Origin: Pseudolactococcus hodotermopsidis
Lineage (GTDB): Bacteria; Bacillota; Bacilli; Lactobacillales; Streptococcaceae
DNA: 48,723 nucleotides
Direction of reading: 5' to 3'
NCBI RefSeq assembly: GCF_011170085.1
Contig: NZ_BLLI01000008.1
Span: forward strand, 1 to 48,723
The translations under genes were made by a program, and so were the position numbers. The notes under the pieces were generated by a model. That model worked only from the letters and a program-made list of their open reading frames with translations. It was not told the origin of the DNA and ran no database searches. Of this stretch, positions 16,277 through 45,167 are shown in pieces (within the stretch, counting starts at the first letter, position 1; each line of letters opens with the position of its first letter).

Positions 16277-16305
16277 TTGACAATCTAGTTTTGGAAGCGT
16301 ATTCT
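16277..16305 (+). promoter_or_regulatory. Promoter of the permease/uronate operon with overlapping cre
   Basis: TTGACA (16277-16282), a 17-base spacer, then TATTCT (16300-16305). TGGAAGCGTATTCT (16292-16305) fits the CcpA consensus TGNAARCGNWWWCA except for the last base and covers the -10, so catabolite repression is expected. The region 16150-16276 is AT-rich and non-coding. Confidence 0.65.
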
Positions 16306-16434: not shown

Positions 16435-17799
16435 ATGGAAACTATTATTGGTATCCTCTTGATACTATCATTCTTTTTCATGGTTTGGTATTGTGTCAAG
16501 AACTACAATCTCATGATTGGGTTTGTCGTTATGTCAACTTTTTGGTTGGCACTCACGTTTATCGGGCATTCACTTGATCCGAGCATTGTCATGGAGGCAC
16601 CGACCTCAACAGGTGATATGAGTAGCAAACTTGTTGATTTGTTGACTTATGTTTACTCGGATGGTCCCGCTAACTATGCTAAAGCTATGTTGGTCAACGT
16701 TTTCTTTGGTGCATTCTTTGGTCGTGTCTTGATGGACACAGGGATTGCTGCAACTTTGATTCGTAAAGTTGTTGAACTCGGTGGCGACAAGCCTAAAATT
16801 ACCATGAGTCTGTTATGTATCGTAACGTCGGTATTATTTATGTCAATGACAGGGATTGGTCCAGTTATCTCAGTTGCCGTTATCGTCTTGCCAATCTTGA
16901 TGTCACTCGGCATTCCAGCGCCAGTCGCCATGTTCGCCTTTATGGGTTCAATCATGGCTGGGGTTTTCTCAAATATGGTGCATTTCGCACAATATATCGC
17001 CATTTTCCAAACATTCAGCAAAGAGGCAATGAGCTACACTTACAATGACTACTTCACAATCGGTATTATCGGCACAATCGTGTCATTAGTCGTTGTCTTA
17101 ACCGTCTCAATGTTGTCATTGAACAAGAAAAAATCTTACGCTTGGGCAGCCTCAGCTAAACAAGCAACAAGTGACGATGCGCCAATGATTTCATGGATTT
17201 CAATCGTTTTACCTGTACTGGGTCTCGTTTTATTCAAATTGCCAGTTATCTTGTGTTTCATTCTTTCAGCATGTTATGCTTTGATTACAACAGGCAACTT
17301 AAAAGGCACTTACACACAATTGTGTCGCAAATTTGCCAAATTGTTCACTGATGGTGCGATTGACGTAGCACCAATGGTTGGTTTCTTGCTTGCGCTATCA
17401 ATGTTCAACAATGCAGCAACATTTGCAAAACCGTACTTTACAGCAGTAATTGGTGGCTTTGTACCAACGAGTGCTTTGGTTTTATGTCTTGTTATGGGTG
17501 TCTTGACACCGCTTGGCTTCTTCCGTGGGCCGCTTAACTTGGTTGGTGCGGGTGCTGCGATTCTATCAGTTGTGATTGCGGCGAATCCAAATATTCCAAC
17601 AGCGTTCTTGTACCCTTTGTTTGCGATTACAACGATTGCACCACAACATTTGGATGTGACACAATCATGGGTTGCATGGGGCTTTGGTTACACGAAAGTA
17701 TCATCAAAAGACTTTATGACAAAATCAATTCCAACAGGCTGGATTGTCGGCGCAATTCTTTGTGCTGTTGTCTATGTTTTGTATGGCAATTTAGTTTAA
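16435..17799 (+). CDS. GntP-like (ion transporter superfamily) permease
   Basis: A 454-residue polytopic membrane protein with about 11-12 segments. FFGAFFGRVLMDTGIAATLI (near 90-109) followed by GGDKPKIT matches the plan of GntP/CitMHS permeases, proton-coupled carriers of organic acids such as gluconate. A second permease with the same motifs lies at 20918. Both share TQSW..W and TKV near the C-terminus. It is the first gene behind the cre-controlled promoter, with a strong ribosome-binding site (AGGAGGG). No known uronate transporter (ExuT or GPH type) is present in the window, so uronate or a related acid is the likely substrate, by inference. Confidence 0.7.
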   Translation: METIIGILLILSFFFMVWYCVKNYNLMIGFVVMSTFWLALTFIGHSLDPSIVMEAPTSTGDMSSKLVDLLTYVYSDGPANYAKAMLVNVFFGAFFGRVLMDTGIAATLIRKVVELGGDKPKITMSLLCIVTSVLFMSMTGIGPVISVAVIVLPILMSLGIPAPVAMFAFMGSIMAGVFSNMVHFAQYIAIFQTFSKEAMSYTYNDYFTIGIIGTIVSLVVVLTVSMLSLNKKKSYAWAASAKQATSDDAPMISWISIVLPVLGLVLFKLPVILCFILSACYALITTGNLKGTYTQLCRKFAKLFTDGAIDVAPMVGFLLALSMFNNAATFAKPYFTAVIGGFVPTSALVLCLVMGVLTPLGFFRGPLNLVGAGAAILSVVIAANPNIPTAFLYPLFAITTIAPQHLDVTQSWVAWGFGYTKVSSKDFMTKSIPTGWIVGAILCAVVYVLYGNLV

Positions 17800-17903
17800 G
17801 GGCATCTCTAAAATCGGCTTTTGTTCATTTTCAGCAATTTTTTCATGCACCGAGTAACCGCAGGTGCAAAAATGGGCGAGTCTGAGTTTTTAGAGATACC
17901 CTT
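17798..17903. mobile_element. 106-base palindromic (MITE-like) element
   Basis: AAGGGCATCTCTAAAA (17798-17813) is inverted at 17887-17903 (TTTTTAGAGATACCCTT). Inside is another hairpin, TGCACC...GGTGCA (17846-17868). The left end includes the last bases of the permease stop codon. Related ends occur near 36463-36484 and 39724-39768. In RNA it may also act as a terminator or attenuator before the HyuA-like gene. Confidence 0.6.
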
Positions 17904-17918
17904 AAAATAAGCACAACT

Positions 17919-17973
17919 ATAAAACCAAACATGAGATGTCGATGTAGTTGTTCGATAACCTGTTTGGTTTTAT
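17919..17973 (+). other. Inverted repeat in the leader of the HyuA-like gene
   Basis: ATAAAACCAAACA (17919-17931) and TGTTTGGTTTTAT (17961-17973) are perfect inverted 13-mers around a 29-base loop. It could be a terminator-like hairpin or an operator. The remaining 77 bases to the ATG hold only a ribosome-binding site (TTGGAGA) and a short palindrome AGTATATACT (18018-18027). Confidence 0.5.
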
Positions 17974-18050
17974 ACGCGTTCAACTATAAAAACGGCACAC
18001 AAATTTATGCTTGAATGAGTATATACTTAATAAAAATTGGAGATAATAAA

Positions 18051-20180
18051 ATGGCACGTAAAGTAAGAATGGGAATTGACGTTGGTGGGACACATACCAA
18101 AGCAGTTGCTATTGATAATGAAACACATGAAATTGTCGGAAAAGTTCAAGTTAAAACATCGCATGATCACCCAAGTGGTGTGGCGGCTGGTGTTGTTGAA
18201 TCTTTTGTGCAATGTATGGAAGAAAATGGGATTGCGCCCGCTGATGTTGTATTCGTTGCGCATTCAACAACGCAAGCAACAAATGCGCTTGTTGAAGGTG
18301 ATGTGGCAAAAGTTGGGATTATTGGCATGAGTAAAGGTGGTTTGGAAGGATTCCTTGCCAAACGCCAACTGAAACTTGACAATATCCAACTGGAAGAAAA
18401 GAAACAAATTGAAATTGTCAATGAGTTTATCAAGTTAAAAGAATTGAATGAGTCAAATGCAACGGCTGCGATTAAACGTTTGGAGGGTCAAGGCGCTAGT
18501 GTTTTGGTTGCCTCAATGGCATTTGGCGTTGATGACGGATCGCCCGAAGAATTGATTCACAAAATTGCTGATGCTGACGGTATTCCAACGACTATGGCAT
18601 CAGATATTACCAAACTGTATGGTCTGACACGTCGGACGAGAACGGCAGCTATCAATGCCTCAATTTTGCCGAAAATGCTTGATACAGCGACTTCAACCGA
18701 GGAATCTGTCAAGGGCGCTGGTGTTGAAGTACCGCTGATGATTATGCGTGGCGACGGCGGGGTAATGGAAATTAGCGAGATGAAAAAACGTCCTGTTTTG
18801 ACAATGCTGTCAGGTCCTGCTGCCTCAGTTATGGGGTCGCTCATGTATCTGCGCGCCTCAAATGGTGTTTACTTTGAGGTTGGTGGCACAACGACTAATA
18901 TCGGTGTTATCAAAAATGGTCGACCAGCTATTGATTACTCGGTTGTTGGTGGTCACTCGACTTATATCTCGTCTCTTGACGTGCAAGTTGTCGGTTGTGC
19001 GGGCGGTTCAATGGTTCGGGCAAATAAAACAGGGATTGTTGATGTTGGCCCACGTTCTGCCCATATCGCTGGTCTTGGTTATTCGGTTTACACAGATACT
19101 GACCAGATTAAAGGTCCGCGTGTTGAGTTCTTCTCGCCAAAACCTGGAGACCCAGAAGATTATGTTAAAGTCGTGATGGAAGATGGTTTTGAAGTTACGA
19201 TTACAAATTCTTGTGCGGCAAATATTCTTGGCTTGGTTAGTCCAGATCATTTCTCTTATGGAAATGTTGAGTCTGCACGCAAGGCGTTCAAGGCTTTGGC
19301 AGATTATTGTGGCACAACGGTGGAAGATATTGCTGAGCAAATCATGGCGGCCTCTTATCGTAAGATTGAGCCAATTATCTCTGGCTTTGCTGAGAAATAT
19401 AAATTGGAACATGACCAAATTTCCTTGGTTGGTGTGGGTGGCGGTGCTGCCTCGCTGATTACTTATTTCTCAGATAAGTATAAAGTTAAGTATTCAATTC
19501 CTGAAAATGCGGAAGTTATTTCATCTATCGGGGTGGCTTTGGCAATGGTGCGTGATGTTGTTGAACGGATTATGCCATCGCCATCGAAAGAAGACATTCG
19601 CGCGCTGAAAAATGAGGCTTTGAATAAAGCGGTTGAGTCGGGTGCAACGCCAGAATCGGTAGAAATTCATATCGAAATTGACCCACAAACCTCTAAAGTC
19701 ACTGCCATTGCGACAGGTTCGACGGAAGTTAAGGCAACTGACTTGACTAAAGAAGTGACAGATGCCGAAGTGCTTGAATTGGCGGCAGAAGACATGCGCT
19801 TGAAACAAGACCAAATTAAAATTAAGACGAAAAATAACTACTTCTATATTGTCGGCGAAACAAAAGACGATAAAGAGGGACAAGCTATGCGGATTGTTGA
19901 TAAAAAAGGCTTTATCAAGGTGCAACGGGCAAATGCCATGTTTGCGAGGACAACAGCTGAGTCTTATCTGGAGCAAATGGAACGTCTTTGGGATGATATG
20001 GCAGTTTACCAAACGGAGTTGATTGCACGACCAGACTTTTACTTGTGTATTGGTGCGCGTGTCATGGACTTCTCGGCGACTGATTTTGAACAACTCACAT
20101 TATTGACTGATTTAGAAGTGTCAATGCTTGAACCAACAGAAGAGGTATTGATTGTTGCCGCAAATATTAGCCAAACTTAA
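18051..20180 (+). CDS. HyuA-like hydantoinase/oxoprolinase family protein (ASKHA fold)
   Basis: A 709-residue protein from ATG 18051 (TTGGAGA upstream). The N-terminal Hydant_A_N-type domain has GIDVGGTHTKAVAID (about 7-21) and HSTTQATNALVEG (near 75). The Hydantoinase_A-type domain has YFEVGGTTTNIGVI (near 280), QVVGCAGGSMVRA and GVGGGAASLITYF (near 465). In most HyuA proteins both GGT loops carry Asp (GGTFTD, GGTTTD); here they read GGTHTK and GGTTTN, so the ATP-site chemistry may differ. The last 160 residues are unlike HyuA and unrecognised. No HyuB partner lies nearby. The gene overlaps an HExxH protein gene and stands between two permeases ahead of uxuB. Confidence 0.75.
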   Translation: MARKVRMGIDVGGTHTKAVAIDNETHEIVGKVQVKTSHDHPSGVAAGVVESFVQCMEENGIAPADVVFVAHSTTQATNALVEGDVAKVGIIGMSKGGLEGFLAKRQLKLDNIQLEEKKQIEIVNEFIKLKELNESNATAAIKRLEGQGASVLVASMAFGVDDGSPEELIHKIADADGIPTTMASDITKLYGLTRRTRTAAINASILPKMLDTATSTEESVKGAGVEVPLMIMRGDGGVMEISEMKKRPVLTMLSGPAASVMGSLMYLRASNGVYFEVGGTTTNIGVIKNGRPAIDYSVVGGHSTYISSLDVQVVGCAGGSMVRANKTGIVDVGPRSAHIAGLGYSVYTDTDQIKGPRVEFFSPKPGDPEDYVKVVMEDGFEVTITNSCAANILGLVSPDHFSYGNVESARKAFKALADYCGTTVEDIAEQIMAASYRKIEPIISGFAEKYKLEHDQISLVGVGGGAASLITYFSDKYKVKYSIPENAEVISSIGVALAMVRDVVERIMPSPSKEDIRALKNEALNKAVESGATPESVEIHIEIDPQTSKVTAIATGSTEVKATDLTKEVTDAEVLELAAEDMRLKQDQIKIKTKNNYFYIVGETKDDKEGQAMRIVDKKGFIKVQRANAMFARTTAESYLEQMERLWDDMAVYQTELIARPDFYLCIGARVMDFSATDFEQLTLLTDLEVSMLEPTEEVLIVAANISQT

Positions 20181-20916
20181 AGCCTATACGGGCAAAAGTA
20201 CTTTTGAGAAGTTGAATGATTTGGTCAAACCTCAGCCAGCAGTGAAGGCTGAGGATGCCGATGATAAGGAACTTTGGAAGATGCTGACTGATTTATTGCC
20301 GATTTCGGATAATGTTTGGGGTGAGGTTGCCTTTACTAAGGAATTGTTGAAAAAGAAAATTTCACCCGACTTGAAAGCAGAAATGATTGTCAAAGCAACG
20401 GCAGCAGGCGAGTTTATGGCTGAAAAGTGTCAAGCCAAATATCCGAATTTGTCAATTGAAGAAATTGTCAAGGCGGAAGGTTTGGTGCTGACTTATCATG
20501 CGGAGGAAAAAATTGGCGAACGTATTTTATTTGCTATGTATACGCCGCCAGATAAAATCGTTGTCATGAAAAATCCGATTATGGAAATTGTCAAAGCCAT
20601 GCCGCATTGGAAAAGTGAAAATGAGATTAAGGCGATTGTCCTAGCGCATGAACTTTATCATCATTTGGAGTGTTCCGAGCCGAGTACTTATACGCAAAGT
20701 GAGCAGATTGTACTTTGGAAGTTACCGTTTTACGAAAGTAAGTCGCAGGTGCGTGCTTTGAGTGAAATTGCTGCCATGGCATTTAGCAAAAAGATGAACG
20801 GTTTGGCATTTTCACCAGCGTTACTTGATATAGTGTTATTTTATGCCTATAATCCGCAAGAGGCAAGAAAGATGTATCAAGAAGTTTTGGGGTTTAGTTT
20901 AAGAAAGGAAAGTTAA
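20152..20916 (+). CDS. HExxH putative zinc protein, first paralogue
   Basis: A 254-residue soluble protein, starting at TTG (20152) inside the end of the HyuA-like gene because the frame has a stop just before it. VLAHELYHHLE (HELYH at 166-170) is a zincin motif. LSEIAAMAFSKK (Glu205) is placed like the third ligand and following helix of ImmA/IrrE-type peptidases. The N-terminal half (1-110) is helical and unrecognised. There is no signal peptide or helix-turn-helix. One base separates it from the next permease. The protein at 22205 shares the same core (HEL.H.LE...P..YT...SEI.A..FSK). Whether it is a protease, hydrolase or metal-dependent partner of the HyuA-like protein is unknown. Confidence 0.7.
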   Translation: MLPQILAKLKAYTGKSTFEKLNDLVKPQPAVKAEDADDKELWKMLTDLLPISDNVWGEVAFTKELLKKKISPDLKAEMIVKATAAGEFMAEKCQAKYPNLSIEEIVKAEGLVLTYHAEEKIGERILFAMYTPPDKIVVMKNPIMEIVKAMPHWKSENEIKAIVLAHELYHHLECSEPSTYTQSEQIVLWKLPFYESKSQVRALSEIAAMAFSKKMNGLAFSPALLDIVLFYAYNPQEARKMYQEVLGFSLRKES

Positions 20917-20917
20917 A

Positions 20918-22198
20918 ATGTTTGGAATCATATCAGGGATATTGTTACTTGCCACTTTTTTGGTTTTAGTGGTTTATTGTATGAAAGGTAAGAATCTGCT
21001 CATTGGGTTTTTAGTTGCTGCAGTTGCGTGGTGTGTCATTGGTTTAGTGCCAATGCAAACGGTGGTTACGACCATTTTCCAAGACTCAGTTGCAGCTTAT
21101 GGTGGAACAATCGCTGTTATTGTCTTTGGGGCTTGGTTTGGTCGCGTTCTTGTTGATACGGGAATTGCTGGTTATATTATCAAAAAAACAGTTGAATTGA
21201 CTGGCGATAAGCCGTTGGTTACGACTTTACTTATCAACATTGTTTGTATGTTAATTTTTACCAGTGCCTTTGGTGTTGGTTCAGTTATGGCAATCGGGAT
21301 GATTATTTTGCCTATTTTGATGACACTTGGAATAGACAAAAAAATTGCTGCGGGTGCTTATATGCTTGCGGTAGCGGGTGGTATGTGGTTAAATATTGCT
21401 TATGTGAGTCAATTTTTCGCTGTTTTTCCAGGAATTAAATATGACAATAGTTATATTCGTTTTGGAGCAATCGCGACAGGTATTCATTTGGCTATTTTGG
21501 TGCTTTATATTTTATTTAACTACGGTTTTTCTAAGAAGAAAAAAGTTCGTGCTTGGGCAGTCGCAAAACCAATGAGTGAGACAGACTTGAAAGGTTATGT
21601 TGTCATCGTGCCATTTGTGCCAATTGTTACAGTGGCGTTATTAAAATGGCAACCTGTTCCTGCCTTTTTAATGGGAATTTTCTTGGGCTTACTCCTAACT
21701 GGCAATTTGAAAAATTATAATTTAGCTGTTGCCAAAGTTCAAAAAACGTTATATGACGGCGTAGCTGATAGCGGTCTATTGATTGGGATGTTGTATAGTG
21801 TTAATATTTTCCAAGCTGCAGCAAAACAAATTGCACCTTTATTGCAAGATTTGTTGGCAGATTTCATTCCAAATTCGCCAGTTATCATCTTGATTGCCTT
21901 TTGTATTTTAGCACCGCTTGCCTTGTTCCGTGGGCCACTGATGATTTGGGGTTCTGGAATTGCGCTAGCAACGATTTTACAAGCTATGGGAACATTTGAC
22001 GAGTCATTTTTGTTCATTATCTTTATGATTCCACCTGTGTCAATTGTGGCATCTTCTTGTCCGACACAATCATGGACAATGTGGGCATTGAACTTTACAA
22101 AAGTTGATACCAAGGAATATATTAAGACAAATTTACCATGGGCATGGGTGCTTACGGTGGCTTGTTTATTAGTTGGCTATTTTGTTTATTATCTGTAA
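20918..22198 (+). CDS. GntP-like permease, second paralogue
   Basis: A 426-residue polytopic membrane protein. IVFGAWFGRVLVDTGIAGYI (near 67-86) plus TGDKPLVTT corresponds position by position to the permease at 16435, and the end (CPTQSWTMWALNFTKVDTKE) also matches it. The two are diverged, so they may carry different organic acids or act together. Its ATG follows the HExxH gene by one base (GGAAAGTTAAAATG). It is in a tight run with the second HExxH gene and uxuB. Confidence 0.7.
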   Translation: MFGIISGILLLATFLVLVVYCMKGKNLLIGFLVAAVAWCVIGLVPMQTVVTTIFQDSVAAYGGTIAVIVFGAWFGRVLVDTGIAGYIIKKTVELTGDKPLVTTLLINIVCMLIFTSAFGVGSVMAIGMIILPILMTLGIDKKIAAGAYMLAVAGGMWLNIAYVSQFFAVFPGIKYDNSYIRFGAIATGIHLAILVLYILFNYGFSKKKKVRAWAVAKPMSETDLKGYVVIVPFVPIVTVALLKWQPVPAFLMGIFLGLLLTGNLKNYNLAVAKVQKTLYDGVADSGLLIGMLYSVNIFQAAAKQIAPLLQDLLADFIPNSPVIILIAFCILAPLALFRGPLMIWGSGIALATILQAMGTFDESFLFIIFMIPPVSIVASSCPTQSWTMWALNFTKVDTKEYIKTNLPWAWVLTVACLLVGYFVYYL

Positions 22199-22204
22199 AA
22201 TAAC

Positions 22205-22774
22205 ATGGAAAATTATGAATTGATTGATGCCGAAACTAAGACTTGTGATGCTGCGTTCTTTTTAGACTTGATTGCGCACAGTCCTGCGCGAAAACTTTCG
22301 CTTGATGAAAAAATGGCTATCATTGAATCCTGTCAAGCGGCAGCTATTAGTCAATTTGAAAATTTAATCGAGTTGTCTCCTTTGTCGCATATTAAAAATT
22401 TAGGTTTTAAATTAGTAGAAGATGTGGCAATGGAAAATGTGCCAGTCTTTGCACTATGTCATTCGGCAGAAAAGAAGCTAACTTTGAATGCTAAAATGAT
22501 TGAAAAAGTTGAGCAAAGACTTCAAAATTTTGCTAAAAGAGATGAAAAATGGGCAGTCAACATCAAAATTGTTGTCTTATGGCATGAATTATTTCATATG
22601 TTAGAAGAAAATGACCCGACAATTTATACGCGTAACGCATGGATTGAAAAAAAGTTTTTCAATCGCGTCAAAAAAGTACCGCTAGAGTGTGCAAGTGAAA
22701 TTGGCGCTATTTACTTTTCAAAAATAGCGACTAACTTACCTTTCAATCCAAGGGTATTTGAATTATTGGCTTAG
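22205..22774 (+). CDS. HExxH putative zinc protein, second paralogue
   Basis: A 189-residue soluble protein. VLWHELFHMLEENDPTIYTR carries HELFH (127-131), and SEIGAIYFSK carries Glu165, the same core as the larger protein at 20152. It lacks that protein's long N-terminal part. It follows a permease paralogue by six bases and precedes uxuB by 21. The pairing of each permease with an HExxH protein suggests a working relation, perhaps processing of the transported compound or of the permease. The family assignment (zincin, ImmA/IrrE-like) rests on motif spacing only. Confidence 0.7.
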   Translation: MENYELIDAETKTCDAAFFLDLIAHSPARKLSLDEKMAIIESCQAAAISQFENLIELSPLSHIKNLGFKLVEDVAMENVPVFALCHSAEKKLTLNAKMIEKVEQRLQNFAKRDEKWAVNIKIVVLWHELFHMLEENDPTIYTRNAWIEKKFFNRVKKVPLECASEIGAIYFSKIATNLPFNPRVFELLA

Positions 22775-22795: not shown

Positions 22796-24418
22796 GTGGG
22801 AATTAAATTAAATAGAGGGTTATCTTGTCAAATTAGCGAACTTGCTAATATGGATGTGCAATTAACCAAGAAAAATTTTGAACAGTTGAAAGAAAATACA
22901 AGTGAGATGCCACAATGGATTCATTTTGGTGGTGGCAATCTTTATCGTGGTTTTCACGCTGAAGTCGCACAAGAATTGATTAATCAAGGCAAACTTGAAA
23001 CGGGTGTAATCGTTTGTGAGACTTATGATGAAAATATCATTGATGAGGCTTATTATCCTTATAATAACGCCATTTTAGAAGTGATTATGCACGAAAATGG
23101 CGAGCTTGAAAAGAAATTGTTACAGTCAACAGCAGCAGCTTATTATTGCAATCCAGATCGTCCTGCAAGTTATGAGGCGGTTAAGGCGATTTTTGAAAAT
23201 GCGAGTTTGCAATTTGCGACGTTTACGATTACCGAAAAAGGTTACAATCTGACCGATATTAACGGCAATTATACAGCAGTTGTTGAAAAAGATATTATTG
23301 AAGGACCAGATTCAGCTGAGCATACCATGGCGATTGTGGCAAGTCTCTTACTGGCACGTTTTAATGCGGGTGGCATGCCGATTGCCATGGTCACAACGGA
23401 TAATTTCTCGCAAAATGGTCAGAAATTCCAAAACAGTATTTTGGGAATTGCTAAGGGGTGGGTAGCACAAAATCATGCACCACAAGCCTTTATCAATTAC
23501 TTAGAAGAAGATAAAAAAGTGAGTTTTCCATGGTCAATGATTGATCGAATTACACCCAATCCATCTGAAAGTGTAAAAATTGCGCTTGAAAATGACGGTT
23601 TTGAAAATCTTGACTTAATTCATACACCAAAAGGCACGAATATTGCACCATTTGCCAATACGGAAGTTTGTCATTACTTGGTTATTGAGGACAGTTTTCC
23701 TAATGGTCGTCCTGAGCTTGAGGCGGCGGGCGTGATTTTGACGAATCGTGACACGGTAGATAAGGCGGACACGATGAAAGTGACGACTTGTTTGAATCCG
23801 CTGCACACATCGCTTGCTATTTTTGGCAACCTGCTAGGTTTTACATCAATTTCTGGTGAAATGACAGATGCTGATTTGGTGGCGCTTGTCAAAGAAGTTG
23901 GTTATGTTGAGGGCTTGCCAGTTGTTGTTAATCCTCAAATTATTGACCCGAAAGTCTTTATTGATGAGGTAGTAGGCAAGCGTTTGGTCAATCCAAATAT
24001 TCCAGATACACCGCAACGCATTGCAGCTGATACATCGCAGAAAGTTGCGATTCGCTTTGGCGAAACAATTAAGAAATATGTCGCAAGTGATGTCTTAGAT
24101 GTTTCTGAATTGACGTTTATTCCACTGACTTTAGCTGCTTGGGTTCGCTATTTGCTTGGTGTTGATGATAGTGGAGAATCTTTTGTCATAAGTCCAGATC
24201 CATTGCTTGCTGATTTGCAAGCGCAATTAAGTGGCGTGACTTTAGGTAATATAGGCGATTTACATGAAAAAGTGGCACCGATTTTGCATAATGAGAAAAT
24301 CTTTGGTGTGGATCTGTATGAGGCAGGGCTTGGCGAGAAAATCGAAGGCTTTATTGCTGAGTTAATTGCTGGACCAGGTGCTGTCCGTAACACTTTGCAT
24401 GATTTGCTGAATAAATAA
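22796..24418 (+). CDS. uxuB: Fructuronate reductase (mannitol dehydrogenase family)
   Basis: Converts D-fructuronate to D-mannonate with NADH in the glucuronate branch. It is 540 residues, starting at GTG behind AAGAGG. The N-terminal NAD domain has WIHFGGGNLYRGFHAE (about 42-57). The C-terminal domain contains the long-chain mannitol dehydrogenase core. WSMIDRITPNPS and KVTTCLNPLHTSLA (near 325-338) hold the expected catalytic-region residues. It is immediately followed by uxuA and uxaC, which supports UxuB over tagaturonate reductase (UxaB), although the two cannot be fully separated by eye. It is somewhat longer than the E. coli enzyme. Confidence 0.85.
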   Translation: MGIKLNRGLSCQISELANMDVQLTKKNFEQLKENTSEMPQWIHFGGGNLYRGFHAEVAQELINQGKLETGVIVCETYDENIIDEAYYPYNNAILEVIMHENGELEKKLLQSTAAAYYCNPDRPASYEAVKAIFENASLQFATFTITEKGYNLTDINGNYTAVVEKDIIEGPDSAEHTMAIVASLLLARFNAGGMPIAMVTTDNFSQNGQKFQNSILGIAKGWVAQNHAPQAFINYLEEDKKVSFPWSMIDRITPNPSESVKIALENDGFENLDLIHTPKGTNIAPFANTEVCHYLVIEDSFPNGRPELEAAGVILTNRDTVDKADTMKVTTCLNPLHTSLAIFGNLLGFTSISGEMTDADLVALVKEVGYVEGLPVVVNPQIIDPKVFIDEVVGKRLVNPNIPDTPQRIAADTSQKVAIRFGETIKKYVASDVLDVSELTFIPLTLAAWVRYLLGVDDSGESFVISPDPLLADLQAQLSGVTLGNIGDLHEKVAPILHNEKIFGVDLYEAGLGEKIEGFIAELIAGPGAVRNTLHDLLNK

Positions 24419-24439
24419 TGATTGAGGAGATTTTACGAA

Positions 24440-25510
24440 ATGGAAATGACTTTTAGATGGTATGGCGCAAATGAAGAAAAGATAAAATTATCTGACATTC
24501 GTCAAATACCAGGCTGTAAAGGAATTGTTGGGACTTTGATGGATATTCCTGTTGGCGAAGTTTGGCCAAAGGCGCGCATTAAAGCCTTGAAAGAAGAAAT
24601 TGAGGCGGCAGGTTTAACGCTGAAAGTGATTGAAAGTGTCAATATTCATGAAGACATCAAAATGGGTGTGCCGTCGCGTGATAAATGGATTGAAAACTAC
24701 AAAACGACGATTCGCAATCTCGCTGAATTTGGAATTGAAGTGATTTGTTATAATTTTATGCCTGTATTTGATTGGTTGAAAACAGATTTAGATTTCAAAT
24801 TGGCAGACGGTTCGTCAACTTTGTCGTTTGTTACCAAAGATTTGCCCGCCTCACCAGAGGAATTGATTCAAAACATGGCAGATGGTGCTGAGGGTTTTAG
24901 TTTACCAGGTTGGGAGCCTGAACGTTTGGCGCAATGTAAGGCCTTATTTGATTTTTACAAAAATATTTCTGATGATGATCTGCGTGCTAACTTTAAATAT
25001 TTTATAGAGGCGATTATTCCGACTTGTGAAGAAGTTGGTGTGAAAATGGCTTGTCATCCAGATGATCCGCCGTATAGCGTTTTTGGCTTGCCACGCATGG
25101 TCAAAAACCGTGATGATTTGGACTGGATGATGAACGCAGTTGATTCAGCGTTTAATGGTATTACTTTGTGTACAGGTAGCATTGCTGAAGATCCTGCCAA
25201 TGATGTGGTTGCGATTTTGGCTGAATTTACTAAACGTGGTCGGATTCCTTTTGCTCATGTGCGCAATATCAAATTTACTGATGTTGCGGCAAAAGACTTC
25301 TATGAGGCACCGCATTTGTCAAGTGATGGCTCGCTTGATATGTATGCGATTATGCAAGCCCTGCATGACAATGGTTTTGACGGCTACATTCGCCCAGACC
25401 ATGGTCGCATGATTTGGGGCGAAACAGGTCGCCCAGGCTATGGTTTATATGACCGCGCGCTCGGTCTGACCTACCTCAATGGCTTGTGGGAGGCGCTTGA
25501 GAAGAAATAA
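24440..25510 (+). CDS. uxuA: Mannonate dehydratase
   Basis: Dehydrates D-mannonate to 2-keto-3-deoxygluconate (KDG) in a metal-dependent TIM barrel. It is 356 residues from ATG 24440, placed by TGAGGAGA 10 bases upstream. The family start MEMTFRWYG and GIVGTLMDIPVGEVWP are typical. Metal and substrate residues lie in CYNFMPVFDW, MACHPDDPPYSVFGLPR (His/Asp ligands) and FAHVRNIK. The end has RPDHGRMIWGE. It is between uxuB and uxaC and followed by a long hairpin. Confidence 0.95.
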   Translation: MEMTFRWYGANEEKIKLSDIRQIPGCKGIVGTLMDIPVGEVWPKARIKALKEEIEAAGLTLKVIESVNIHEDIKMGVPSRDKWIENYKTTIRNLAEFGIEVICYNFMPVFDWLKTDLDFKLADGSSTLSFVTKDLPASPEELIQNMADGAEGFSLPGWEPERLAQCKALFDFYKNISDDDLRANFKYFIEAIIPTCEEVGVKMACHPDDPPYSVFGLPRMVKNRDDLDWMMNAVDSAFNGITLCTGSIAEDPANDVVAILAEFTKRGRIPFAHVRNIKFTDVAAKDFYEAPHLSSDGSLDMYAIMQALHDNGFDGYIRPDHGRMIWGETGRPGYGLYDRALGLTYLNGLWEALEKK

Positions 25511-25585: not shown

Positions 25586-26992
25586 ATGTTTTTAGATAAA
25601 GATTTTGTATTGAAGAATGATTTTGCCAAGGAATTGTACCATGATTATGCGGCGAAACAGCCGATTATTGATTACCATTGTCATTTAGAACCAAAAGAAA
25701 TTTATGATGACATCAAGTTTGAAAATATCACGCAAGCGTGGTTGTATGGCGATCACTATAAATGGCGTTTGATGCGTGCCAATGGTGTGCCAGAAAAATT
25801 GATAACAGGAAATGGCTCAGATTATGATAAATTTCTAGCCTTTGCTGAAAGTTGTGAAAATGCTATCGGTAATTCAGTTTACGTTTGGACAAATTTGGAA
25901 TTAAAACGTTTGTTTGATATTGACGACGTTTTGACTGCTGAAAATGCGCCGATGATTTGGGAAAAAGTCAATCAGAAGATTACCGATGGCACGATGAGTG
26001 CGCGTCAGCTCATCAAAAATGCGCATGTTAAAGTCATCTGTACGACAGATGATCCTGCAAGTACGCTTGACTATCATCAAAAATTGGCAGCAGAAGAACA
26101 AGCATTTAAAGTTTATCCGACTTTCCGTCCTGATAAGGCTTTCGCCATTGGTACGTCTGCTTTTGCGGGAAATATCAAAGAACTGTCAGAGGTATCTGGT
26201 ATAACAGTTAAAAGTTTTGCTGATTTGATCCAGGTTTTGGAAGAACGAATCGACTTTTTCCACAGTGTTGGCGGTCGTTTGTCTGACCATGGCTTTAATC
26301 CATTTCCAGTTAAACAAGCGCCGATTGAAGTGGTTGAAGGCATTTTTACTAAGGCCTTAAATGGCGAAACTTTGACTGCTGATGAAATTGAGTTTTATTC
26401 ATCTGAATTGATGTTTAATTTGATGAAATTGTATCAAGCTAAAGATTGGGCGGTTCAGCTGCATTTACAAGCGACACGGAGTAATTCGACGAAATTGTTC
26501 AATGAAGTTGGCGTAGATGTTGGCGGCGATGCGATTGCTGACGGTTTTATTGAGGCGGCAGTTCAGAGCCTTTTTGACCGTGTCGAGCTTGCCTGTGGCT
26601 TGCCAAAAACAATTTTGTATTCGCTCAATCCTAAAGACCACATCTCGCTTATCGCTTTAATGGGTGCTTTCCAAGGTGGTCAAAAAGGAAAGATTCAGTA
26701 TGGTTCTGGTTGGTGGTTCAATGATAATTATTCTGGCATGCGCAAGCAAATTGTTGATTTGGCTGAAGGAGGCGTACTCGGTAATTTTGTCGGCATGTTG
26801 ACTGACTCGCGTAGTTTCTTGTCTTATCCACGTCATGAGTATTTCCGCCGTATCTTGTGTCAAGTTATTTCTGAATGGATGGAGGACGGTCAATTACCAG
26901 CAGACAGCAAATTGATTGGACCGATTGTCGCTAATATTGCTTATGGCAATGCAGCCACTTACTTTGGCTTTGATTTGCCGAAAGAGGTGTGA
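25586..26992 (+). CDS. uxaC: Uronate (glucuronate/galacturonate) isomerase
   Basis: Interconverts D-glucuronate with D-fructuronate, and D-galacturonate with D-tagaturonate. It is 468 residues, the usual size. It is an amidohydrolase-fold enzyme with IDYHCHLEPKEIYDD (about 28-42) at the N-terminal metal/substrate site, VICTTDDPAS near 150, GWWFNDNYSGMRKQ near 375 and LTDSRSFLSYPRHEYFRR near 405. The ribosome-binding site is GAGGAAAG. It is followed by an overlapping aldose-epimerase-like gene. Confidence 0.95.
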   Translation: MFLDKDFVLKNDFAKELYHDYAAKQPIIDYHCHLEPKEIYDDIKFENITQAWLYGDHYKWRLMRANGVPEKLITGNGSDYDKFLAFAESCENAIGNSVYVWTNLELKRLFDIDDVLTAENAPMIWEKVNQKITDGTMSARQLIKNAHVKVICTTDDPASTLDYHQKLAAEEQAFKVYPTFRPDKAFAIGTSAFAGNIKELSEVSGITVKSFADLIQVLEERIDFFHSVGGRLSDHGFNPFPVKQAPIEVVEGIFTKALNGETLTADEIEFYSSELMFNLMKLYQAKDWAVQLHLQATRSNSTKLFNEVGVDVGGDAIADGFIEAAVQSLFDRVELACGLPKTILYSLNPKDHISLIALMGAFQGGQKGKIQYGSGWWFNDNYSGMRKQIVDLAEGGVLGNFVGMLTDSRSFLSYPRHEYFRRILCQVISEWMEDGQLPADSKLIGPIVANIAYGNAATYFGFDLPKEV

Positions 26993-26994
26993 GT

Positions 26995-27882
26995 ATGATT
27001 AAACTTGAAAATGAGCAATTTTTAGTTGAAATTTCAGAAAAAGGTGCAGAATTACAGAAAATTTTCAGCAAAGAAAATCAGATTGATTATTTATGGGATG
27101 GCACGCCTGAAGTTTGGGCAAAACATGCGCCAGTTCTCTTTCCATCAATCGGCAAGTCAAACAACGACCAATATACGCATAAAGGCACGACTTATGATAT
27201 GCCACATCACGGATTTGCGGGAGAATTTGATTTCACGGTTCTTGAAAATTCGGCAACAAGTGTGACTTTAAGTCTATGTGATAATGACAGTACTTTTTCA
27301 CGTTTTCCCTTTCATTTTGAGTTGATATTGCGTTATAGCTTGACAAATACTGGGCTTGCCACGCATTACACGGTTAAAAATTTGACTGATGAAGTCATGT
27401 CATTCTCATTGGGTGCGCATCCGGGTTTTCAAGTACCTTTGGGAAATGATGGCAATTTTGAAGATTACGTTGTGTCATTTGAGCCGACAACTGTTGTTTT
27501 AAAACGCTTTGAATTTGTAATGACACCCATGCCACATCGTAGTGGCGTTAGTTTAACGTTTGATGCTTGTGTTGACGGCAAAATCGCTTTGACACGTGAT
27601 ATTTTTGAGAACGGTTTGATTGTTTTTGACAATCCTGAGATAAAGTCTGTCACGCTATCAAGTCCAAAATCGGCGCATTCAGTTACAGTTGATACAACAG
27701 ACTTTCCTTACTTTTGTTTGTGGACACAGACGAGTGACAAGGCTAATTTTGTCTGCCTAGAACCATTTTACGGTATCCCAGATATTTATGAAAAAAGTGC
27801 TGAATTAATCGTAAAAGACGGCAATTGTATCTTAGTGCCAAATTCTCAAAAAGAATTTCATACTGTCTTTTCATTTAAGTGA
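26995..27882 (+). CDS. Aldose 1-epimerase-like protein (LacX/galactose mutarotase family)
   Basis: About 295 residues of the galactose-mutarotase-like beta-sandwich superfamily. Conserved points are YLWDGTPEVWAKHAPVLFPS (near 36-55), MPHHGFAGEFDF (near 68) with the catalytic-type His, FSLGAHPGFQVP (near 143) with a second His, and ending CLEPFYGIPD. The ATG at 26995 lies three bases after the uxaC stop codon, behind AAAGAGG; an upstream GTG at 26989 is also in frame. In this context it may equilibrate uronate or deoxy-sugar anomers, an inference. It lies upstream of the GntR-type regulator. Confidence 0.8.
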   Translation: MIKLENEQFLVEISEKGAELQKIFSKENQIDYLWDGTPEVWAKHAPVLFPSIGKSNNDQYTHKGTTYDMPHHGFAGEFDFTVLENSATSVTLSLCDNDSTFSRFPFHFELILRYSLTNTGLATHYTVKNLTDEVMSFSLGAHPGFQVPLGNDGNFEDYVVSFEPTTVVLKRFEFVMTPMPHRSGVSLTFDACVDGKIALTRDIFENGLIVFDNPEIKSVTLSSPKSAHSVTVDTTDFPYFCLWTQTSDKANFVCLEPFYGIPDIYEKSAELIVKDGNCILVPNSQKEFHTVFSFK

Positions 27883-27912
27883 TTCATTGCCCAAATCGTG
27901 TTTAAAATATGC

Positions 27913-27918
27913 TATAAT
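27913..27918 (+). promoter_or_regulatory. -10 box of the gntR/kdu operon
   Basis: TATAAT preceded by TGC (extended -10), 34 bases before the GntR ATG. This box overlaps the upstream part of the longer possible reading of the regulator and so argues for the shorter start. Confidence 0.6.
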
Positions 27919-27951
27919 AACAAGTATATTAATGAAAGGCAAGGTCAACCG

Positions 27952-28614
27952 ATGAAATATACGAGTTTACAAGAGCAAGCTTATGAAACTATTCTGCATA
28001 AGATTATCTACTCAGATTTTGCGCCAGGACAAAAAATTTCCGAAAAAGAACTAGAAAAAATCTTAAAAATCGGGCGAACGCCGATTCGTGAGGCGTTGGT
28101 TCAGTTGAGAAAGCAAGAATTGATTGATGTTGTACCGCAAAGTGGCACTTATATTTCTAAAATTAACTTGAAATCTGCTGATAATGCGCGTTTTACACGG
28201 GAGCAGTTAGAGCGGCGCGTGATGGCTGAGTGTATTACGCAGATTGATGAGGAGGGAAAAAAAGCGCTGCTTTATATTATCGAAAAGCAACGTGAGGCAG
28301 CACTTAGTCGCAACAAGCGTGACTTCTTTTTCTTTGATAATATTTTCCATAAAACTTGTTTTGAAATTGCGGGGCGCGAGGAAATTTGGAATTGGTTGAC
28401 AGCAAACAGTATTCATCTGGATCGCTTTAGGTGGCTACGGGTCGCTATTGAGGAAATGGACTGGGATGGCATTATCAAACAGCATCAGACGATTATTGAC
28501 ACGATTTTGAGCAAAAATATTGACGAGATGGACTTTATTATGACCTTACATCTTCACATGATGTTAGATGAAAAAGATTTCGTTATTTCTAAATATCCAG
28601 AATATTTCTTGTAA
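27952..28614 (+). CDS. GntR family regulator, FadR subfamily
   Basis: A DNA-binding regulator of about 220 residues (ATG 27952). The N-terminal winged helix (about 5-70) includes ISEKELEKILKIGRTPIREA and the wing PQSGTYIS. The C-terminal FCD ligand domain (about 80-215) has the expected Asp/His metal positions (DNIFHKTCFEIAG and LHLHMMLDEKD). It lies between the uxaC group and kduI and probably senses a uronate intermediate such as KDG or fructuronate, an inference from UxuR/ExuR/KdgR-type relatives. kduI starts 16 bases after it. Confidence 0.88.
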   Translation: MKYTSLQEQAYETILHKIIYSDFAPGQKISEKELEKILKIGRTPIREALVQLRKQELIDVVPQSGTYISKINLKSADNARFTREQLERRVMAECITQIDEEGKKALLYIIEKQREAALSRNKRDFFFFDNIFHKTCFEIAGREEIWNWLTANSIHLDRFRWLRVAIEEMDWDGIIKQHQTIIDTILSKNIDEMDFIMTLHLHMMLDEKDFVISKYPEYFL

Positions 28615-42196: not shown

Positions 42197-42469
42197 ATGC
42201 CAACAGGGAAAATAAAATCAAGTACCGTAGATGCACAAGCCGCAATTTCAGAACTTACAGGGATAAGCGCAACTAATTTTGCGAACCAATCTGTTGATTT
42301 CAGTTCAAGTAATATTTCAAGTATGCTTGCAGGTCAGATACTAGTCAATCAACTCATGAATCATACTTCAAAAGTTGTTTCATGCGTCTTATCACAAGCT
42401 AATAAATTTCCAGAATTAGCTCGTGCGATTGAAGAACGTGATATTGCAGATAGTCAGAGGTTTAGATAA
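42197..42469 (+). CDS. LXG-associated small helical protein (TIGR04197/DUF3130, Lap1-like)
   Basis: A 90-residue all-helical protein. The start MPTGKIKSSTVDAQAAISEL and the Ser/Asn-rich middle (SVDFSSSNISSMLAGQ) match small proteins encoded ahead of LXG toxins in streptococci. These act as targeting partners that bind the LXG domain for type VIIb export (family knowledge). AGGAGAAT precedes the ATG. It is the first gene of the toxin operon, and the next gene begins at its stop codon (TAATGG). Confidence 0.75.
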   Translation: MPTGKIKSSTVDAQAAISELTGISATNFANQSVDFSSSNISSMLAGQILVNQLMNHTSKVVSCVLSQANKFPELARAIEERDIADSQRFR

Positions 42470-42780
42470 TGGTTAAAGAAACAGCTAAAAAAGGGCTTTT
42501 TGATGATTTTTGGACAATTTCCCCCGAGCGTGATTTAGTAGATGATACCAAAAAAGTTGAAGAAGAAATCATCGAAAATCCTCGGTGGGAAGATTATGAC
42601 TGGACAGACTGGGCAGAATATTGGCATATTAGCATTGAACGGACACGGCTAAACTTTGAAAAGGCAGACGACGAAGAAAAAGTCAGCTTAATTTATGCTA
42701 ATCGAACAATTCATGAACAAGCTGAAGAAAAACGTCAAAAACTTGCTAAAAAAGAAGCTGATAGGGTCAAGTATCAATAA
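42469..42780 (+). CDS. LXG-operon helper protein, N-terminal part (in-frame stop)
   Basis: 103 codons, Trp-rich and acidic (LFDDFWTISPERD, WEDYDWTDWAEYW), ending in a Lys/Glu/Arg-rich helix (EEKRQKLAKKEADRVKYQ). The TAA at 42778 is followed in the same frame by SLKKFAAEKKEKA, which continues the same kind of helix. This suggests that one ancestral gene (42469-43218, 249 codons plus stop) has been split by a nonsense change. The function would be that of an LXG chaperone or targeting factor; no family is recognised for the N-terminal part. Confidence 0.6.
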   Translation: MVKETAKKGLFDDFWTISPERDLVDDTKKVEEEIIENPRWEDYDWTDWAEYWHISIERTRLNFEKADDEEKVSLIYANRTIHEQAEEKRQKLAKKEADRVKYQ

Positions 42781-42783
42781 TCT

Positions 42784-43218
42784 TTGAAAAAGTTTGCTGC
42801 TGAGAAAAAAGAAAAAGCAGTTCCAACTTCTCTTTTTGAGAATACTACAAGCTATAAGCAACAACCGAAAGATAACATTGAAGCTAAACGTAACGCACTT
42901 TACCAAGAAATTATGCGTCAAGAATCAGATATAGATGAACTCAAGGGTATGACTAACAAGCTTACTCAAAATAATGAAAACTTCATTTCAGACATCAGGC
43001 GTAATATTGATAATGCACGCTCTATTTTTGAAAATTCACAATTGAATTCTAGGCAAGCACAAGGTGAAAATGAAATTTATCAAAGTGTTTATGCAAACTT
43101 AAAATCTCGCTTTGAAATCCAAAATGAGAAGATTAGGCAGTCCTCAAATAGAACAAGACGTGATATTGAAGATAAGATTGATAACTTGAGCAGAGAAAGG
43201 AACAACTTACCGTGGTAA
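42784..43218 (+). CDS. LXG-operon coiled-coil protein, C-terminal part (Lap2/DUF3958-like?)
   Basis: 144 codons from a TTG in the same frame as the preceding gene, two codons after its TAA. There is no convincing ribosome-binding site. It is almost wholly helical, with coiled-coil segments at about 38-75 and 95-140 (RNALYQEIMRQESDIDEL; RTRRDIEDKIDNLSRERN). Length and helix plan resemble the second LXG-associated helper (DUF3958/Lap2), a tentative call. It overlaps the toxin gene start by seven bases. It may be the 3' half of a gene broken by the stop at 42778, or be re-initiated. Confidence 0.5.
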   Translation: MKKFAAEKKEKAVPTSLFENTTSYKQQPKDNIEAKRNALYQEIMRQESDIDELKGMTNKLTQNNENFISDIRRNIDNARSIFENSQLNSRQAQGENEIYQSVYANLKSRFEIQNEKIRQSSNRTRRDIEDKIDNLSRERNNLPW

Positions 43219-44834
43219 TCTATGACAGTGGCGATTCAAGCAATCTGATAACAGCCTTAGAAGCTAACCTTTCAGGCGCTCACCAAATCTTCAATCGTCT
43301 TTCAAAAGGTAGTCAACATCTAATCGGTGTGATTGATTCAGGCACCTTATCAGGTGCTGCCTATAAAGCGGGACAAACATTGTTTGTTGCTTATATCAAT
43401 CCCATGCTTCAAAAATTAAATCAAGCTATCGCAGATATACAAGGCGACCTAAAATCTTATCAATCGGCAGATAGTGCCATAAGTGCTGTGGGTAATCATT
43501 TGGATAGCGACCAAATTCAAGAACTTCTAAAACTCACTCAGAATATGATTGATTTAGTTGAGCAAAAAATCAAAGATGATCGAGATTTCATCAATCAATT
43601 TTTTAGTGGCGGGTTTGAAAAGGTTGGTAATGCTTTATCAGAATTGCCCGCCCTCTATGACCAACTAGAAAATTTAAAAAAAATTAAAGCGACACGCCAA
43701 AAAGAACTGAAAGCGCTAGAAACCTTTGCAAGTTCGACTAACTCACTTTTTCGAGATAGCTTACGTGCTTTTGAAAATGCGATGAAAGGCGTTGATGTTA
43801 TCAATCAGTCAACCGCAAGTGCAGACGGTACGATTACTTTTCCTGCGGGTGCTGATATGAGTTGGGCTGCGAAGTTAGGTAGTGAAAAATTTAGTTCCAA
43901 TCTTTCGGAAAGTAAGGAAGAAAGGTATCACAAATCAAAAATAAAAGAGTTAGAGAAATATAACATTTATGCCATGCCCTACGAAGACCCGACGACCAAA
44001 GAAGTTAAAATCATGTGGTTTATTGACAAGGACGGTGTGCGTATTTTTGACGAGGAACTACAAGATTACGTTGAAAAATATGGCAAAAACTTTGTTGGTA
44101 TGTATGAAATTGTTGGTTGGGAGAAGATTTATGAGCTAGACCTTGCGGCAAGGCGAAAAGGGAACGGCAAGAATTATCTCACGGACGGTCAGCTGCCTAG
44201 TGGCTGGGAAAAGTGGGGTCAAGCTGGAGGCTTTGCAGATTCTATTTATTGGTATAGTTCAAAGAGTGGTTTGCTTGATTTGGCGCTGATTGCTGGACTT
44301 TCTTATGCGGCTAGTAAGTCGCAGACTAAGGCTGGTACTGGTGTTAATGTTGCGAATGTTATGGATGATGTTGCTTCAGGAGTTGGAAAAGGAAATTCGC
44401 AAAGTGTAGAAATTAGAATTTCTTCAGAAAGCATTAAGCATGCTGATTTAGGTGGCTTTACAGTTAATCCCTCCACTAATGAAATATCAAAAATGAAAGG
44501 CGGTGGTCATGGACAGTCTAATATTGATTTTCTTAAAGAAAATGGATTTGAAGTCAATATTGAAAACACTTATCCTAATGGTGTTAGAACAGGGAATGTG
44601 CCAAGCCATAAAACTAAAGCCAAGAGGACTGGTAACAATCAATCTTGGTTTCCAGATAATTGGACAGCTAAAGATATAGAAAATGCAGGTCAGCACATTG
44701 CTAGTCAATCAAATTTTAATGTAATTAAAGATGGGGAAGTTATTTTTGGAGATTATAATGGAGTTCGAGTAGGTGTGATAAAGACTGAAGGTAAACCGGC
44801 TACTATTTTTCCAGATGCTACACAACAACCTTAA
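43212..44834 (+). CDS. LXG polymorphic toxin with C-terminal EndoU nuclease domain
   Basis: 540 residues, GTG start behind GAAAGG. Residues 1-200 are a full LXG domain (LSGAAYKAG near 46 is the L-x-G signature). A conserved middle follows (about 240-380: YNIYAMPYEDP, GWEKIYELDLAARR, WGQAGGFADSIYWY). From about 388 a variable tip begins with GGGHGQSNIDFLKENGFEV (His433) and continues with VPSHKTKAKRTGNNQSWFPD (His466) and GVRVGVIKTEG..ATIFPD, the layout of bacterial EndoU RNase toxins. It is expected to leave by the type VIIb system and cleave RNA in competitors. The immunity gene follows after 21 bases. No secretion machinery lies in the window. Confidence 0.88.
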   Translation: MVIYDSGDSSNLITALEANLSGAHQIFNRLSKGSQHLIGVIDSGTLSGAAYKAGQTLFVAYINPMLQKLNQAIADIQGDLKSYQSADSAISAVGNHLDSDQIQELLKLTQNMIDLVEQKIKDDRDFINQFFSGGFEKVGNALSELPALYDQLENLKKIKATRQKELKALETFASSTNSLFRDSLRAFENAMKGVDVINQSTASADGTITFPAGADMSWAAKLGSEKFSSNLSESKEERYHKSKIKELEKYNIYAMPYEDPTTKEVKIMWFIDKDGVRIFDEELQDYVEKYGKNFVGMYEIVGWEKIYELDLAARRKGNGKNYLTDGQLPSGWEKWGQAGGFADSIYWYSSKSGLLDLALIAGLSYAASKSQTKAGTGVNVANVMDDVASGVGKGNSQSVEIRISSESIKHADLGGFTVNPSTNEISKMKGGGHGQSNIDFLKENGFEVNIENTYPNGVRTGNVPSHKTKAKRTGNNQSWFPDNWTAKDIENAGQHIASQSNFNVIKDGEVIFGDYNGVRVGVIKTEGKPATIFPDATQQP

Positions 44835-44855
44835 TGCGAATGGAGGGAATAAAAA

Positions 44856-45167
44856 ATGAATTTAAAAAACGATATGAATAAAAAATTACAAAATAGAAAA
44901 ATTTTGAATATAAACGATGATTTTGGAATTGAAAAATCATGGGAAGAAATGGTAGAGCTTTTGTCTCAAAATGAAGATAGTACTATAAACTATCTTGAAT
45001 CAGTTGAAAAAGAAGATTTGTATTATATCAGCGAGATTTTTGAAGATTTATCCGAAATTTTTCAAAGTCCGAAATTTATAAGTTGTTTAAGAAAATTGGA
45101 TGAAAAATTTCCAAAATTAGAGATGACTAACGATATTGATATTGCAGAGAGTTATATTGAGAAATAG
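44856..45167 (+). CDS. Putative immunity protein for the EndoU toxin
   Basis: A 103-residue acidic, helical cytosolic protein (about one fifth Asp/Glu) directly after the toxin gene, with its own ribosome-binding site (GGAGGGAAT). Size, acidity and place fit an immunity protein blocking a basic RNase tip. No family is recognised with certainty. It has no membrane segment, as expected for protection against a cytosolic nuclease. Confidence 0.7.
   Translation: MNLKNDMNKKLQNRKILNINDDFGIEKSWEEMVELLSQNEDSTINYLESVEKEDLYYISEIFEDLSEIFQSPKFISCLRKLDEKFPKLEMTNDIDIAESYIEK

Follow-up and report, generated by a model that had tools for sequence, protein, structure and literature searches.

A permease, a HyuA-like protein and a predicted IrrE-type zincin as a conserved gene unit in bacteria and archaea

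What is the role of a HyuA-like protein that is encoded without a HyuB partner, among permease and zincin genes and directly upstream of genes for uronate catabolism? The question is raised by positions 16435-22774 of contig NZ_BLLI01000008.1 of Pseudolactococcus hodotermopsidis (assembly GCF_011170085.1); positions 1 to 48,723 of this contig were analyzed and are called the window. An original prediction, made from the sequence alone, had described a five-gene module there, and all five open reading frames (ORFs) were confirmed at these positions. The module is genuine but better described as a triad of permease, HyuA-like protein and zincin, plus a second permease-zincin pair lacking HyuA, than as five co-equal genes. 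To judge from its sequences, the triad is a genuine conserved unit that is widespread in bacteria and archaea. It brings known fold families together in a new combination and is apparently undescribed; in agreement with the original prediction, no pathway with this gene set was found as a system in the literature searched. The five genes are:

16435-17799, + strand: permease A, DcuC/IT-superfamily-like, 454 amino acids (aa), assigned by a family hidden Markov model (HMM); partner in the full triad
18015-20180, + strand: HyuA-like ASKHA protein, 721-aa ORF (PF01968, PF05378), likely start at 18051
20152-20916, + strand: zincin A with HELYH and Glu205; the ORF overlaps the hyuA stop; AlphaFold2 (AF2) model
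20918-22198, + strand: permease B, from another triad sub-clade; sub-threshold DcuC match (PF03606, E 0.0043)
22205-22774, + strand: zincin B with HELFH, same HMM family as zincin A; partner of permease B

Linkage and distribution of the triad

The survey covered 55 GTDB loci, 57 regions of further genomes, four plasmid loci and the window (loci and genomes carry L and G numbers below), and iterated HMMs detected 123 HyuA, 111 zincin and 115 permease ORFs. Linkage was counted for 85 distinct (95%) HyuA proteins of more than 600 aa, with neighbours accepted within 4 kb on the same strand and the short fetches L001-L008 left out. The co-occurrence that the original prediction had proposed to look for was found: the permease is the most constant partner and lies near 82/85 HyuA genes, the zincin lies near 79/85 and both partners near 76/85. 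Three of the six loci without a zincin (L099, L104 and L121) end within 400 bp of hyuA, and the genome of L104 (G1077) carries a zincin on another contig. The three loci without a permease are L035 and L086, both at contig ends, and L101. The counted loci also served to build the family HMMs; a more independent test is provided by a phylum sample of 398 genomes, in which HyuA was detected in 22 genomes (E <= 1e-100) and the zincin in 20 (E <= 1e-5), all 20 within the 22, although profile A3 of the zincin test also holds rows from those genomes.

A tree of 43 HyuA proteins, split at its midpoint, separates clade A (17 rows, window included) from clade B (26 rows), to which haloarchaeal and Selenomonas plasmid copies belong. 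Across 35 triads, HyuA distances covary with zincin distances (r 0.68) and permease distances (r 0.83), and the largest values in 2000 permutations were 0.20 and 0.28, respectively. The corresponding coefficients are 0.58 (reached by 2/2000 permutations) and 0.62 (0/2000) within clade A, and 0.80 and 0.73 (0/2000 each) within clade B; shared species history is left in all these correlations. The distribution of HyuA is patchy, as it was detected in 6/398 genomes of the class and in 28/392 genomes of the order of G442. A plasmid search returned 877 records; among the 20 listed, 8 cover at least 95% at 33-40% identity and 12 are at 22-28%, and 9 records beyond these fall into the 60-80% identity band.

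Predicted folds and motifs of the three protein families

The genes, their linkage, their motifs and their predicted folds can be read at the sequence level. The HyuA-like protein matches Hydantoinase_A (PF01968, E 4.6e-62) and Hydant_A_N (PF05378, E 1.5e-21) above cut-off. Relatives align only from about residue 9-15 of the ORF, so that translation probably starts at ATG 18051. In sequence-profile comparison, the closest match is N-methylhydantoinase (E 1.4e-49), followed by the caprolactamase subunit CapA (6.5e-37) and carboxylases (2.1e-21 or weaker). The AF2 model (mean predicted local distance difference test (pLDDT) score 85.2) matches acetone carboxylase beta AcxB (5svc, Z 32.9, 520 residues), CapA (6yra, Z 19.4) and N-methylhydantoinase (9h03, Z 19.4). 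According to excerpts of PMC8453981 and PMC5214803, hydantoinases, lactamases and ketone carboxylases share two conserved phosphate motifs, P1 and P2, and a conserved adenosine motif. Motifs were counted in 108 HyuA proteins (15 of the 123 HMM-found ORFs, at most 600 aa long or not picked, were left out), and P1 (DxGGTxT) is present in 106/108. The absence of HyuB, as stated in the original prediction, is borne out: the PF02538 profile gave no match in the 97% complete own assembly, which speaks against a HyuB encoded elsewhere in the genome, and none in 12/13 other triad genomes, some of them metagenomic.

The triad thus resembles HyuAB, OplAB and CapAB in the ASKHA HyuA fold, in both domains and the P1 motif and in an ATP-site protein encoded beside a zinc protein. 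It differs in that HyuB is missing and an unrelated zincin of the IrrE type is the zinc protein; in the HyuA-like protein itself, P2 has Glu for Asp, GxxPGP is absent and residues after about 588 lie outside the coverage of the best structural match. Pairs of the S-Me-THD/DUF917 type (L006, L007) are similar in that a HyuA-like protein adjoins a partner other than HyuB. There, however, the 516-aa HyuA-like protein stands beside a PF06032/PF20906 protein and keeps DVGGT, and no zincin was recognised in the 4-kb loci; GxxPGP is absent from both of these proteins as well.

Zincin A and zincin B, predicted to be HExxH paralogues, indeed fall into one iterated HMM family (25% identical). HExxH is present in 104/104 zincin ORFs of at least 150 aa (7 shorter ORFs among the 111 matches were left out), and H166, E167, H170 and E205 (zincin A numbering) are invariant in 60/60 aligned zincins. 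In the AF2 model of zincin A (pLDDT 90.8), the nearest fold is IrrE/PprI (Z 9.2-9.6), with the IrrE metalloprotease core 3dti at Z 9.6 over 115 residues and 2.8 A; Foldseek alone gave a best E of 0.2, and zincin sequences searched against the PDB gave nothing meaningful. Zincin A reaches 16.6 bits with the Zincin_1 Pfam model (cut-off 22.4) and zincin B gave no match, while the haloarchaeal zincin of L065 reaches 17.8 bits with M78 (cut-off 22). The HExxH plus Glu site and the modelled core fold fit predicted IrrE-type zincins, as in IrrE/PprI and ImmA (M78), from which the triad zincins differ in their unmet Pfam cut-offs and in having a metabolic-type ASKHA protein as operon partner. No DNA-binding or sensor domain was recognised in the zincin, and the best structural matches span the zincin core alone.

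The two permeases also form one HMM family (33% identical), as had been predicted, whereas their description as GntP-like holds only in part: permease A has no meaningful Pfam match and permease B reaches 16.1 bits with DcuC (cut-off 23.1). A haloarchaeal relative exceeds this cut-off with 36.7 bits, and, searched against the PDB, the family profile matches a TRAP permease (E 6.2e-5). Permease A groups with triad permeases of Enterococcus, Enterocloster and Paenibacillus and zincin A with an Enterococcus-type triad. Permease B groups with the permeases of Lactococcus laudensis and of L103, whose gene order is permease-HyuA-zincin-GntR-uxuB. Zincin B groups on long branches with zincins of L. 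laudensis and L103/L069/L053; its grouping with L103 is less sure, because branches of the zincin tree are long and some joins were flagged. A HyuA of the same sub-clade does not adjoin the permease B/zincin B pair. A local tandem duplication was rejected, as the second copies group with the L103-type triad and not with the first copies. The window thus holds one complete triad and a permease-zincin pair from another sub-clade, which may be the remains or a minimal form of a second triad. In L. laudensis (L009), permB and zincinB are intact ORFs beside uxu genes, and permease A and zincin A were not recognised in this locus. Apart from two in-frame TAA codons, the L. laudensis hyuA (L009, 10007-12124) has about 80% identity with the window copy.

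Gene neighbourhoods and the link to uronate catabolism

In the window, the five genes run on into uxuB-uxuA-uxaC, as had been predicted. The flanking features are:

16277-16305, + strand: candidate promoter with cre-like string TTGGAAGCGTATTCT at 16291-16305 (consensus match only)
22796-24418, + strand: UxuB-like fructuronate/tagaturonate reductase (PF01232/PF08125; named from domain and position)
24422-25510, + strand: UxuA mannonate dehydratase (PF03786, E 7.3e-163; TIGR00695, 405 bits, cut-off 199.55)
25586-26992, + strand: UxaC glucuronate/galacturonate isomerase (PF02614, E 3e-189; NF002794, 559.9 bits, cut-off 387)
26989-27882, + strand: aldose 1-epimerase-like protein (PF01263)
27898-28614, + strand: GntR/FCD regulator (PF00392, PF07729)

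The best NCBIfam matches of the UxuB-like protein, D-arabinitol 4-dehydrogenase (105 bits) and fructuronate reductase (97 bits), are both far below cut-off. Located 3' of the GntR gene are kduI-like and kduD-like genes (KduI and short-chain dehydrogenase domains), GH28, an ABC transporter, GH88, kdgA-like and kdgK-like genes and a two-component pair, the latter three named from sequence; because such genes follow uxu/uxaC, the region is a pectin/uronate catabolic island. The tight gene order that had been noted applies to most genes but not to permA and hyuA, which are 215 bp apart. This gap contains, at 17788-17912, an inverted repeat of 23 nt (91% complementary) that belongs to a dispersed family resembling miniature inverted-repeat transposable elements, with 66 matches in the own assembly including this copy.

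The predicted promoter with a catabolite-responsive element (cre) was confirmed to the extent that the cre-like string overlaps a sigma-70-like site scoring 10/12. The pattern that matches it occurs three times in the window (1.45 expected; 18/100 shuffles reach 3). A stricter palindromic pattern with at most two mismatches gives 30 strand-matches, palindromes being counted twice (14.2 expected; 0/100 shuffles reach 30), but the promoter string is not among them. Since the first pattern is not above chance and the stricter one, despite its enrichment across the window, misses the promoter string, cre control is considered plausible.

For neighbour counts, the 85 distinct HyuA proteins were assigned to clades by their last P1 residue (51 A, 33 B, 1 unassigned); these counts are possibly low, since the gene picker dropped overlapping ORFs (zincin 76 versus 79 in the recount). 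Clade A is often found among sugar-acid and keto-sugar genes. Its 51 loci contain GntR (27), LacI (13), YhcH (12), YiaK (11), uxuA (6), kdgA (6), PfkB kinase (6), HxlA-like (5), HxlB-like (5) and uxuB (4) neighbours, and the YiaK of L046 matches the 3-dehydro-L-gulonate 2-dehydrogenase equivalog of NCBIfam with 453.6 bits (cut-off 316). A FAD_oxidored gene (PF12831) is nearby in 0/51 clade A and 20/33 clade B loci, for example in L064, L066, L070 and L107, and also at haloarchaeal plasmid loci; some clade B and haloarchaeal loci of this kind also have ROK, NagA-like and NagB-like genes. Many triads, for example in Paenibacillus, Enterococcus and Clostridium, have a regulator as their sole recognised neighbour, and the regulator families vary (GntR, LacI, IclR, RpiR, ROK, GntR-UTRA).

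Two further variants were observed. In clade A, L069, L074, L080, L081, L101 and L102 combine HxlA/HxlB-like genes with a PfkB-type kinase, and five of these six loci have a TIM-barrel epimerase-like gene; HxlA and HxlB belong to a formaldehyde-fixing pathway in other bacteria. In L080, HxlB reaches 203.7 bits (cut-off 160) and HxlA, with 196.1 bits, is just under its cut-off of 200. In clade B, L097, L098 and L118 carry DUF4127 (PF13552, scanned in L098) and a 229-238 aa protein of family c17 between hyuA and zincin. One member of c17 (201-238 aa, 7 loci) was scanned and gave no Pfam or NCBIfam match.

uxuA and/or uxuB are located near L009, L021, L043, L046, L050, L103 and some other loci. 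UxaC was detected in 24/29 and UxuA in 22/29 triad genomes (only triad-holding genomes were counted, among them G005 with a broken hyuA). Neither is present in G448 and G1229, the latter being Enterococcus mundtii Pe161; absences are soft where triad assemblies are metagenomic, while the E. mundtii chromosome (L026) is recorded as complete. G442 has YiaK, permease, HyuA, zincin, YhcH, uxuA, kdgA and kdgK in one run and UxaC was not found in its assembly, which suggests an entry point below UxaC for this organism. With UxaC missing from 5/29 and UxuA from 7/29 triad genomes and with differing contexts, uronate specificity is unsupported. A uronate-only module is likewise weakened by the variation in neighbours and genome content (YiaK/YhcH, KdgK/KdgA, HxlAB, FAD oxidoreductase or a regulator alone).

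A further known system for comparison is the E. coli yiaKLMNO-lyxK-sgbHUE operon for 2,3-diketo-L-gulonate. YiaK and YhcH/YiaL relatives occur in 11/51 and 12/51 clade A loci; identity to the E. coli protein is 41-49% for the best 14 YiaK matches, and the triad of L051 is accompanied by a LyxK relative (36%, E 7e-110). In the triads, however, an IT-type permease and HyuA/zincin replace the TRAP transporter. SgbE and SgbU gave no match at E 1e-4, and hexulose-6-phosphate synthase (3ajx, E 5.4e-31) is a closer relative of the SgbH-like proteins, with the HxlB match as neighbour. A full pathway of the E. coli type was therefore rejected despite the YiaK, YhcH and LyxK relatives.

In the literature searched, no paper was found for "HyuA" with "mannonate dehydratase", and among the matches listed for hydantoinase and mannonate dehydratase together, PMC11581127 is the only one. 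Excerpts of this paper report that the genes of Ruminococcus gnavus most induced on agarooligosaccharides form one operon, FXV78_RS16940 to RS16965 (log2 fold change 4.14-4.35, about 18- to 20-fold), encoding a YhcH-type protein, a "hydantoinase", a hypothetical protein called "peptidase", uxuA, yiaK and a further hypothetical protein. Its authors tie the operon to carbon catabolism and suggest a possible resistance mechanism; the excerpts contain no study of the hydantoinase or peptidase. By these annotations, the operon corresponds in content to the triad variant with YiaK, YhcH and uxuA, and RS16950 would be the zincin and RS16965 the permease.

In the distal part of the window (42197-47938), a toxin-like array was observed, with two EndoU proteins (43212-44834 and 45248-46546; PF14436) and a third ORF (47012-47938). 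The three share a repeated middle part, differ in their C-termini and have small ORFs in between; we take them to resemble LXG-type polymorphic toxins.

Proposed function and alternative explanations

Tentatively, the triad is read as encoding an ATP-dependent two-protein hydrolase in which the zincin does the job of HyuB on an imported sugar-acid derivative. We infer ATP use, the division of labour between HyuA-like protein and zincin and the substrate class as follows. The compound imported by the permease would be a carboxylate, most probably a sugar acid in derivatised or cyclised form. The HyuA-like protein would bind ATP and activate a carbonyl or amide-type group, as proposed for CapA and HydA, and the IrrE-type zincin, in place of HyuB/CapB, would supply the zinc site and hydrolyse the activated compound. 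A hexonate or keto-hexonate would be released and channelled into UxuB/UxuA/2-keto-3-deoxygluconate (KDG) catabolism here and into YiaK, KDG or other routes elsewhere. The predicted import and opening of a cyclic or amide-linked acid fits known HyuA chemistry, but a uronate-specific role is unsupported. A zincin in the B-subunit role is the simplest reading because proteins with an ATP-site-like and a zinc site are nearly always associated and HyuB is missing. According to an excerpt of PMC8453981, CapAB requires both the ATP site of CapA and the zinc site of CapB, so that a zinc protein as the partner of a HyuA protein is to be expected.

Several observations weigh against such a hydrolase. 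P2 reads ExGGT instead of DxGGT in 106/108 HyuA proteins (D in 1), the adenosine motif GxxPGP is found in 0/108, with GPRS[ACS]H in 108/108 instead, and the last P1 Asp (DxGGTxTD) is Lys in 17/17 clade A tree rows, window included; ATP use is uncertain for these reasons, and the chemistry of the HyuA-like protein may differ. The absence of a zincin is real or likely at L064, L095 (1.9 kb of downstream sequence) and L123. In two genomes of one family, G872 (with L121) and G1151, HyuA was detected but the assembly contains no zincin, so the zincin must be dispensable in some cases. Conversely, with hyuA interrupted and permB and zincinB intact in L. laudensis, a permease-zincin pair may persist without HyuA. 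Given the zincin-less loci and the HyuA-less pair, the HyuA-zincin partnership is not absolute. No amide- or lactam-specific gene was recognised among the triad neighbours.

The altered motifs bear on an unlikely alternative, a HyuA-like protein that acts as a keto-sugar-acid kinase or ketone-carboxylase-like enzyme, with the zincin handling an enol-phosphate or side product. Acetone carboxylase beta is the top structural match, the neighbours YiaK and UxuB act on keto-acids, and altered chemistry is suggested by the clade A Lys (the 26 clade B tree rows show 23 Asp and 3 His at this position) together with the residue equated with CapA Asp302 by its distance from P2, which is Asn in 14/17 clade A rows. 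The sequence profile is nevertheless nearer to N-methylhydantoinase and CapA than to carboxylases, and the metal subunit of ketone carboxylases is a homologue of CapB/HyuB (excerpt of PMC8453981), and the own assembly gave no match to the HyuB model. The zincin could instead have a regulatory role and cleave the local repressor, as a protease of the IrrE/ImmA type, the HyuA-like protein being a metabolic enzyme or sensor. This is considered quite unlikely: its nearest fold, the frequent GntR and LacI neighbours and the zincin-less loci agree with it, whereas the zincin stays nearly constant while the regulator family changes, its gene follows hyuA and not one regulator family, and zincin and HyuA distances covary. 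XRE-type repressors, the known targets of ImmA/IrrE, were not recognised among the scanned neighbours, which are part of all neighbours.

Very little probability is given to a transport module in which neither HyuA nor zincin acts enzymatically on the substrate and both serve in the control or maturation of the permease. Such a role would account for the permease as the most constant partner and for the permease-zincin pairs kept without a same-sub-clade HyuA in the window and L. laudensis, but not for the strong conservation of active-site residues in HyuA and zincin, and we know of no precedent for these proteins as permease accessories. The position of the module before uxuB-uxuA-uxaC, uxuA and/or uxuB near several other loci and the frequency of UxaC in triad genomes would fit an ordinary add-on for the uptake of free hexuronate (glucuronate or galacturonate). 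This explanation is equally improbable, as the genomes without UxaC or UxuA and the G442 run speak against it and the established free-hexuronate pathway needs neither HyuA nor zincin.

Extended to all triads, the proposed hydrolase would be a widespread class in which an IrrE-type zincin replaces HyuB, dedicated to a common but unrecognised sugar-acid derivative (an amide, lactam or masked keto-hexonate) in gut, soil and halophilic prokaryotes; in this breadth, the proposal is regarded as somewhat unlikely. If true, the kinase-like HyuA and the zincin would represent a new build of ATP-dependent hydrolase and point to a common but unrecognised nutrient. Proteins automatically named "hydantoinase/oxoprolinase" in sugar-acid operons would then not be hydantoinases, and the small "hypothetical" protein beside such a HyuA would be a zinc enzyme. 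With three genes, the system is small enough for direct testing.

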